Origin: Thiotrichales bacterium
GTDB taxonomy: Bacteria; Pseudomonadota; Gammaproteobacteria; Thiomicrospirales; Thiomicrospiraceae
Assembly: GCA_022759035.1 (NCBI GenBank)
Contig: JAEMQD010000082.1
Location: 1 to 34,735, forward strand
DNA: 34,735 bases
Direction of reading: 5' to 3'
The notes under the pieces were generated by a model. That model had not been told where the DNA came from, ran no database searches, and saw nothing but the letters and a program-made list of their open reading frames with translations. Positions within the stretch are counted from its first letter, which is position 1; each line of letters begins with the position of its first letter. Made by a program: the position numbers and the translations under genes. Shown here in pieces: positions 16,930 to 19,358 of this stretch.

Positions 16930-18063
16930 TTAAAGTGAAAAGCCTTTTAGATCGTCTATGTCGATTTTCGTTTCCACCGCGCCCGTTAAGTAAGAGGATA
17001 CTTCGACTTCTTGCGGTGCCACCTGAACATTGTCGGTCGTTAGCCAGGCATTCATCCAAGGAAGTGGGTTAGCATTGCCACGGTCAAAAATTTTGTCATA
17101 ACCTAACGCGCGTAGGCGTACATTGGTAATGTATTCAACATAGTCTTTAAGAATATCAGCATTCAAACCAATCATGCTGCCGCCTTCAAACAAGTAGTCC
17201 GCCCATTCTTTTTCTTGTTGTGCTGCTTGTCTAAAAATATCAATGACTAAAGGTTCGCACTCGGCAGCAATTTCGGCCATTTCTGTATCATCTTTATTTT
17301 CGCGCATCAACGTTAGCATGTGCTGCGTACCAGAAAGATGTAGTGCTTCGTCACGGGCGATCAGTTTAATAATTTTAGCGTTGCCTTCCATTAAGGCGCG
17401 CTCACCAAAAGCAAAAGAGCAGGCAAAAGACACATAAAAGCGAATCGCTTCCAGTACATTGACTGACGTTAAGGTGAGGTAGAGTTTTTTCTTTAATTCA
17501 CGTTGGTTGATATGAATCGTTTTACCGTTGACAGTATGCGTGCCTTCACCAAGCAAGTTAAAGTACATGCTGTATTCAATAAAATTGTCGTAATGCTCGG
17601 TGACACTAATGGCACGTTTGGTGATTTCTTCATTGATAACGATATCGTCAAATACTTCGGCAGGGTTGTTAAAAATATTGCGGATAATATGCGTGTAAGA
17701 GCGAGAATGGATGGTTTCTGAGAATGCCCAAGTCTCGATCCATGTTTCTAATTCAGGAATAGACACAACAGGCAATAAAGCAACGTTAGGGCTGCGTCCT
17801 TGCACTGAGTCGAGTAGCGTTTGATATTTTAGGTTTGAAATGAAGATATGACGCTCATGCTCGGGCATCGCATTAAAGTCGATGCGGTCTTTCGATAAAT
17901 CAATTTCTTCTGGACGCCAAAAGAAAGAAAGTTGCTTTTCGATAAGCTTTTCAAATAATGGGTAACGTTGTACATCGTAACGTGCTACGTTGACTGGCTC
18001 TCCCAAGAACATGCATTGTTTGGTGGCGTCAAATTGGTGTTGGTTAAATGTTTGGTAACGCAT
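16930..18063 (-). CDS. nrdB: Ribonucleoside-diphosphate reductase class Ia, beta subunit
   Basis: The 377-aa diferric-tyrosyl radical subunit supplies the radical to NrdA for reduction of ribonucleotides to deoxyribonucleotides. The iron ligands and radical tyrosine appear in [17 protein letters not shown] (Glu, His and Tyr equivalent to E. coli E115, H118 and Y122), and a second ligand set in [15 protein letters not shown] (E238/H241 equivalents). The preceding [10 protein letters not shown] probably gives the Asp ligand. The C-terminal end is the NrdA-docking tail. AGAAGGT precedes the ATG. Its partner nrdA is on the same strand but 3.7 kb away, with cheV, a Csd6-like gene and a membrane-protein gene in between. 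Confidence 0.96.
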
Positions 18064-18171
18064 CGTGACCTTCTCTTATTGAATAGTTATCAGCCTATCA
18101 TTTTACAGTATTTTATTTTTTCATTCAGGTTAATAATGACTTTTAATCTGGCATTCGCTATGCTTAATCTA

Positions 18172-18320
18172 GGGCATCTCTAAAAACCCAATGGGTAGGA
18201 AGTCTGAAGGAAGGGGTTGCTAAAAATAGCATGTAACACAGTGATAAACCCCCTTCTTTCAGCTAAAAAATAAACTTGGGAAGTCTAAAAACAAGCGAAG
18301 CGAGGTTTTTAGAGGTTCCC
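18172..18320. mobile_element. 149-bp MITE-like element with terminal inverted repeats
   Basis: The left end GGGCATCTCTAAAAACC (18172-18188) matches the reverse complement of the right end (18304-18320, GGGAACCTCTAAAAACC) at 15 of 17 positions. TCTA abuts both ends (18168-18171 and 18321-18324), as expected for a 4-bp target-site duplication. Inner arms also pair (CTGAAGGAAGGGG near 18204 with CCCCCTTCTTTCAG near 18249). The right end folds on its own (TCTAAAAAC 18284-18292 with GTTTTTAGA 18305-18313). No transposase is encoded, so it would be non-autonomous. It occupies the nrdB-cheV intergenic region, 42 bp from the cheV start. Whether it carries a promoter is unknown. Confidence 0.7.
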
Positions 18321-18362
18321 TCTATTACGCACAGCAAGCACTTATGAAAAAAAGGAAGGATC

Positions 18363-19358
18363 ATGTCCATTTCGCTAGAACAAATTGATAAAACGACCAA
18401 GCTAGTCGAGAATAACCAGTTGTCTTTAATGGTTTTTCAAGTCCAAAACCCAACTGAGACACAAGAAAAACCGCCTGCTTATTATGGTATTAATGTGTTT
18501 AAGGTGCGTGAAGTATTAGAAGCGAAGTCTTATGGGCTATCGAAGTTGCCAGATAGCAATCGCTTAATTGAGGGCATGATTCAGTTGCGTGGCAAGTTTA
18601 TTCCTGTTGTCGACTTGCCGGGTTGGTTGGGTTTTCCTATGTCGGAAGCGGATCGAGCGAATTCGGTGATTATTATTGCCGACTTTAGTCATAACTATGT
18701 TGGCTTGCGCGTTGCGAATATTTATGGCGTTGAAGAAAAGGGTTGGGAAGAAATTTTACCAGCTGAAAACTACGGTATGACAAGCGAAGACTCGTTTGTG
18801 ATTAATCATACCTTTTTAAGTCAAACCAATGCGCTATGTTTTATTTTGGATGTCGAGCGCTTGTTAATGGAGGCGCTACCAGAAGTAGCAGCCAAAATGT
18901 TTCAAGAAGTAGAGAGCGTTGAAGCAGGGCAATTCTCACCATTTTTAACAACGCGAACCCTTTTAGTCGCTGATGACTCGCGTGCTATCCAGCAGTATTT
19001 AGCGGGTGTATTTAATAAGGCGGGTATTCCGCATCTTATGTTCGATAATGGTCGTAAGCTGTTAGATCATTTGGTTACCATGGCGCCAGAAGAGATTTCT
19101 TTGGTGTTTACAGACTTAGAAATGCCAGAGGCTTCTGGTCACACCGTTATTAAAGAAATTCGCGCTAATCCACGCTATGCTAAGTTGCCAATTGTGGTGC
19201 ATAGTTCGATGACTTCAGAAAATAATGCCCGAGAAGTCTATCGTATGGGGGCGGATTATTTTGCAGGCAAAATTGACACCGATGCCGTTATTAAAGACTT
19301 GCACGAAATTGATGTGAAGTTTGGTGGTGCACCACACCGTTCGCTCATGTTGTCATAA
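18363..19358 (+). CDS. cheV: Chemotaxis coupling protein CheV (CheW-receiver fusion)
   Basis: A 331-aa protein with an N-terminal CheW-like coupling domain (about 20-175; GINVFKVREVLEAKSY and MIQLRGKFIPVVDLPGWLG are typical) and a C-terminal receiver (about 198-320). The receiver keeps the acidic pair D204/D205, phospho-acceptor D251 in LVFTDLEMPEASG, Ser in VVHSSM and a conserved Lys near 287. It links chemoreceptors to CheA, and phosphorylation tunes adaptation. AAGGA lies 6 nt before the ATG. The gene stands alone with no other che or fla gene in the window. It is convergent with the Csd6-like gene (15 nt between the stops). The MITE-like element lies directly upstream. Confidence 0.93.
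   Translation: MSISLEQIDKTTKLVENNQLSLMVFQVQNPTETQEKPPAYYGINVFKVREVLEAKSYGLSKLPDSNRLIEGMIQLRGKFIPVVDLPGWLGFPMSEADRANSVIIIADFSHNYVGLRVANIYGVEEKGWEEILPAENYGMTSEDSFVINHTFLSQTNALCFILDVERLLMEALPEVAAKMFQEVESVEAGQFSPFLTTRTLLVADDSRAIQQYLAGVFNKAGIPHLMFDNGRKLLDHLVTMAPEEISLVFTDLEMPEASGHTVIKEIRANPRYAKLPIVVHSSMTSENNAREVYRMGADYFAGKIDTDAVIKDLHEIDVKFGGAPHRSLMLS

Follow-up and report, generated by a model that had tools for sequence, protein, structure and literature searches.

The inverted-repeat sequence upstream of cheV

The palindromic 149 bp that lie between cheV and a divergent nrdB-like gene raise the question of whether they are a mobile element that has landed at a chemotaxis gene or a fixed regulatory part of that gene and, if mobile, of what has moved them. 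From the window alone (the whole stretch of 34,735 nucleotides that was analysed), the original prediction described a MITE with ends sharing 15 of 17 bases as inverted repeats, TCTA abutting both ends, inner arms that also pair, and a position 42 bp before cheV. Each of these features was recovered at the positions listed below, the inner arms pairing at 12 of 13 positions and the ATG of cheV lying at 18363.

16930..18063, - strand: nrdB-like ribonucleotide reductase small subunit, divergent neighbour
18136..18164, + strand: promoter-like ATGACT - 17 bp - TATGCT, from the junction alignment with genome G003
18168..18171, no strand: left target-site duplication TCTA
18172..18320, + strand: MITE of 149 bp with IS5-family / IS1194-type ends, from copy family, ends and flanks
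18172..18188, + strand: left terminal inverted repeat GGGCATCTCTAAAAACC
18204..18216, + strand: inner stem, 5' arm CTGAAGGAAGGGG
18250..18262, + strand: inner stem, 3' arm CCCCTTCTTTCAG
18277..18320, + strand: right unit of 44 bp, in which an internal third end copy faces the right end
18278-18292, direct orientation relative to the left end: internal third end copy GGGAAGTCTAAAAAC
18304..18320, - strand: right terminal inverted repeat, reading GGGAACCTCTAAAAACC on the - strand
18321..18324, no strand: right target-site duplication TCTA
18353..18359, + strand: ribosome-binding-site-like AGGAAGG before the cheV ATG
18363..19358, + strand: cheV, with CheW and receiver (response-regulator) domains, downstream of the insertion

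Within the 34.7-kb window, 18172-18320 is the sole inverted pair that combines a match of at least 15/17, a spacing of 80-250 bp and an identical 4-bp flank. In 20 Markov-shuffled windows there was a mean of 1.0 inverted pair of the same match and spacing, and none with an identical 4-bp flank. Given that the inverted ends alone are near chance, it is the target duplication together with the family of copies that settles the element as real.

Copies and target duplications

The 149-bp query gave 41 matches in the genome carrying the window (G000), about 20 of them long copies with 81-100% identity over most of the length and the rest short, so the sequence is multicopy rather than single-copy. 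The element end sequence is GGGNACCTCTAAAAAC and the 16-bp ends are conserved over 35 copies; with up to two mismatches, the end pattern occurs 71 times in G000 as against once for a reversed-pattern control. Eighteen long copies are intergenic, with one unclear exception, and they occur in both orientations and in every gene arrangement. An exact 4-bp duplication is present at 25 of 37 near-full-length copies from four species, and the duplicated bases are mostly AT-rich (CTTA, TAAA, TATT, ATAA, CTAG and others). The 149-bp element, which falls in the size range of bacterial MITEs (about 50-600 bp), codes for nothing, since it contains no ORF of at least 80 aa.

The other three genomes of the genus (G001, G002 and G003) all carry diverged copies (70-83%). 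Among 53 further genomes from the family and the class, 52 had no match to the element body and one had a match of 23 bp only, and neither a scan of viral contigs nor a search of plasmid DNA gave a match to it. Among the sampled genomes, the element body is restricted to the genus. As regards the host lineage, the nearest NrdA proteins encoded on plasmids are enterobacterial, with 75% identity, and point to a gammaproteobacterium.

Empty sites

The genome G003 has the same divergent nrdB-cheV pair, with a cheV that is 81% identical, and lacks the element there, so the element does not stand at the same place in all relatives. The nrdB-cheV junction measures 190 bp in G003 as against 299 bp in the window genome, and subtraction of the element and one TCTA from the window leaves a promoter-to-ATG spacing about equal to that of G003, in which the aligned empty site has diverged around the target position. 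The search for empty sites was also productive for two other copies: at C1:2672 the flanks are continuous in G001, with 152 bases fewer (59 vs 211), and the element is missing from G002 too, while the copy at C24:8663 is not present at the orthologous site in G001 or G002. Empty sites were found at all 3 of the 3 loci tested, and these three copies are either insertions after the separation of the species or losses in the relatives, of which insertion is favoured because of the target duplications. The MITE assignment of the original prediction is borne out by the 41 matches, the target duplications and the empty sites.

The same sequence could otherwise be read as a fixed part of cheV with a regulatory or RNA function, such as a riboregulator in the leader, that is single-copy, vertically inherited and palindromic by chance. 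Such a reading would suit the strong predicted fold (-46.6 kcal/mol, as against -31.8 +/- 3.5 for shuffles; z -4.3), the position in the probable 5' leader and the pairing of the inner stem, which holds in 94% of cells across copies with some pairs changing on both sides. Nevertheless, covariation in the stems across copies is not above shuffles, so no claim of selection on RNA structure is made, and Rfam gave no match anywhere in the window. Furthermore, the copies at unrelated loci, the absence of the element at the cheV ortholog of G003 and the target duplications that flank the element refute a riboregulator as its origin, and this reading is left with a very small probability indeed. A later co-option of the element at the cheV site is conceivable.

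Source of the transposase

The original prediction placed the helper in another part of the genome, and here the draft assembly did not bear it out, both PF01609 and PF05598 being absent from G000. PF01609 is absent from every genome of the genus, and PF05598 is absent from G001 and G003 as well as G000 and was found only in G002. The assembly of G000 consists of 174 contigs, and because several of these break inside element copies, a repeated IS could be missing from it; the helper would be lost, unassembled or transiently present in G000. As G000 showed no IS5 transposase domain, the helper was assigned from relatives and from other phyla. Present-day mobility would need a helper in the genome itself, whereas an element can lack one and still derive from an IS5-family IS.

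The IS with the same ends that the original prediction proposed to look for does exist, and is an IS1194-like member of the IS5 family. Six intact IS5/IS1194 elements on plasmids, 1.20-1.28 kb in length, have ends that match GGGCACCTCTAAAAAC at 13-16 of 16 positions, and exact 4-bp target-site duplications flank three of them (TCAC, TTGC and ATAT); their hosts are Diaphorobacter, Comamonas, Pseudomonas putida (pWW0), Lactococcus raffinolactis (annotated IS1194), Acidithiobacillus and Aliarcobacter. Inside the genus, G002 carries a relict of 470 bp (G002:C76:24695-25164; L062 1196-1665) that has the same ends and the N-terminal DUF772 (PF05598) part of an IS5 transposase, and that is without the catalytic part and without a clean target-site duplication. 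The comparison suggests a clean chain that can be followed across the genus and its wider relatives and that leads from intact IS through the deletion relict of a sister species to orphan MITEs. The IS5/IS1194-like group gains a MITE family. Two more DUF772 fragments occur in G002 (C187 and C212).

The two ends were also sought 100-130 bp apart in 84,980 species genomes, and at least 118 such stretches were found. Among the matches listed, 107 of the 115 readable pairs have full GGG-type extended ends, and an exact 4-bp duplication is present at 72 of these 107 pairs as against 0 for control 4-mers; the organisms, again among the matches listed, include Ruminococcus, Pseudomonas, Treponema, Pilibacter, Lactococcus laudensis, Nitrospirota and Bacteroidetes. 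In L. laudensis many contigs stop some 110 bases in from such an end, and the sequence at these breaks reads into MNLFGDSDYLEKLSLKGDPLERLEKVVDFECF, the start of an IS5-family (IS1194-type) transposase. In this species abundant IS1194 has been reported, and no MITE (PMC13335696). Autonomous IS were also considered in the form of long end pairs among the loci examined, and the candidates were rejected as chance pairs or as pairs of two MITEs around host genes. A very heavy MITE load was observed in Pilibacter termitis (G059, L088), with about 280 end matches (at most one mismatch) in a genome of 2.8 Mb and element sizes of about 71, 155, 277 and 402 bp.

Insertion into the probable cheV leader

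The element starts 7 bp past the promoter-like sequence, near the expected transcription start, and ends 33 bp before the ribosome-binding site, which is intact, as is the start codon of cheV. The promoter-like sequence is kept in the element-free G003 as GTGACT - 17 bp - TATGCT; it matches the consensus at 8 of 12 positions, below the threshold of the scanner, and its conservation is that of two genomes. Neither a sigma-70-like site nor a terminator-like site was found in 18060-18400. The insertion lies exactly between two signals of a chemotaxis gene, the promoter-like sequence and the ribosome-binding site, and our best guess from these positions is that it adds a strongly folding stretch of 153 nt, made up of the element and one target copy, to the 5' leader of cheV. 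A longer, folded leader could change the processing or translation of the cheV mRNA, or may be neutral.

It is suggested, with a probability of about 0.92, that a MITE inserted at cheV, moved in trans by an IS1194-like IS5-family transposase, and most likely lengthened the leader. The transposase, supplied in trans, would have recognised the 16-bp ends and joined the element to the 4-bp AT-rich target TCTA, duplicating the target, at a landing site 7 bp past the conserved -10-like hexamer and upstream of the ribosome-binding site of cheV. Once the species of the genus had separated, the family would have spread anew, and the helper would since have been lost or be missing from the assembly. 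This account draws on sequence comparison, namely on the copy number, the ends, the target duplications, the empty sites, the matching ends on transposase-coding elements and the relict in the genus, and by it the cheV copy was probably moved by that IS1194-like transposase.

Given that G000 yielded no IS5 transposase, it is conceivable that a transposase of some other family moved the MITE and that its ends converged on the same 16 bp. However, this is highly improbable: several independent IS5/IS1194 elements agree with the MITE both in the ends and in the length of the target-site duplication, and the genus itself holds an IS5 relict that has these ends. A further possibility concerns what the element does at cheV, which may now be transcribed from an outward promoter within it, as in a Correia/ERIC-like repeat. 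The element is indeed upstream of the gene, and sigma-70-like promoters are present in other bacterial MITEs (PMC10969869; PMC6382973). The original prediction, too, allowed that the element might supply a promoter, but this was not supported: the scan of the region gave no sigma-70-like site, and a conserved promoter-like sequence was already upstream of the insertion. Transcription of cheV from the element is thus unlikely. Insertion of an IS1194-mobilised MITE downstream of an existing promoter accordingly stays the preferred reading.

Relation to known elements

These MITEs form a new family, their ends are of the known IS5/IS1194 type, and the kind of element is already known; for the window itself this is an ordinary result, a mobile element of a known kind. 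No relevant paper printing these end sequences was found in the open-licence literature, and an earlier description elsewhere is possible. Relatives of IS1194 have the same ends, GGG(C/A/T)ACCTCTAA(A/T)AAC, and the same 4-bp target duplication, but they are 1.2-1.28 kb long and code for a transposase (IS5 family, DUF772 N-terminus), whereas the 149-bp element shares only the ends and has no gene, as in a type II MITE.

Correia elements of Neisseria differ from the cheV element in their ends and in their target duplication, which is TA rather than the 4-bp TCTA, and promoters and RNase III cleavage have been shown for them and not for the cheV element. They are nevertheless alike in being small, palindromic and often just upstream of genes, and at mtrCDE a Correia element lies just downstream of the promoter, as the cheV element does, and affects expression (PMC10969869). 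MITEAba12 of Acinetobacter is likewise short and geneless, with 16-bp imperfect inverted repeats and a predicted mobilisation in trans by an IS with common ends, but it has the ends GGCTTTGTTGCACAAA, a 9-bp duplication, a length of 113 bp, a resident helper, and outward promoters that were predicted and checked against transcriptomes (PMC6382973).

MITEs with these ends are found, among the matches listed, in Firmicutes, Proteobacteria, Spirochaetes, Nitrospirota and Bacteroidetes. A tentative and rather doubtful extension is that one near-unchanged set of 16-bp ends serves MITEs in many phyla. Orphan MITEs of unrelated hosts could then be reactivated by any IS1194-like element that arrives, which may be what took place in this genus, and the cheV insertion would represent a recent change in regulation left by such a visit. 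The wide spread of the same ends over phyla makes cross-phylum mobilisation testable.

Internal structure and variant copies

A feature beyond the original prediction is the third, internal copy of the end at 18278-18292, owing to which the last 44 bp form an inverted-repeat unit by themselves. This unit also occurs free-standing, with TAAG/TAAG flanks, at G000:C24:17291-17334 (L030 1501-1544). The element contains 9-bp direct repeats (TCTAAAAAC) at 18179-18187 and 18284-18292, and the free-standing version is possibly the product of a deletion between them. A nested insertion of the 44-bp unit was considered and rejected, given that no duplication flanks the unit in the long copies; a simpler account is that the copies have an internal end copy in common.

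In two species, some copies carry at the same internal site a hairpin insert of 22-30 bp and of variable sequence (L016 264-434; L025 1501-1641; loci L057, L059 and L063 of G002), examples being CTGCTTACGCAG and CACCTTACGGTG followed by CACTAAAGTG. Other copies end at about element base 113-114 (L022/L073, at G000:C121:1-55, and L009). In C121 the truncated copy is followed by CTGAATTCAAGTATTAAGTGCAACG, which looks like the end of another IS inserted in the MITE and which may be IS30-like.
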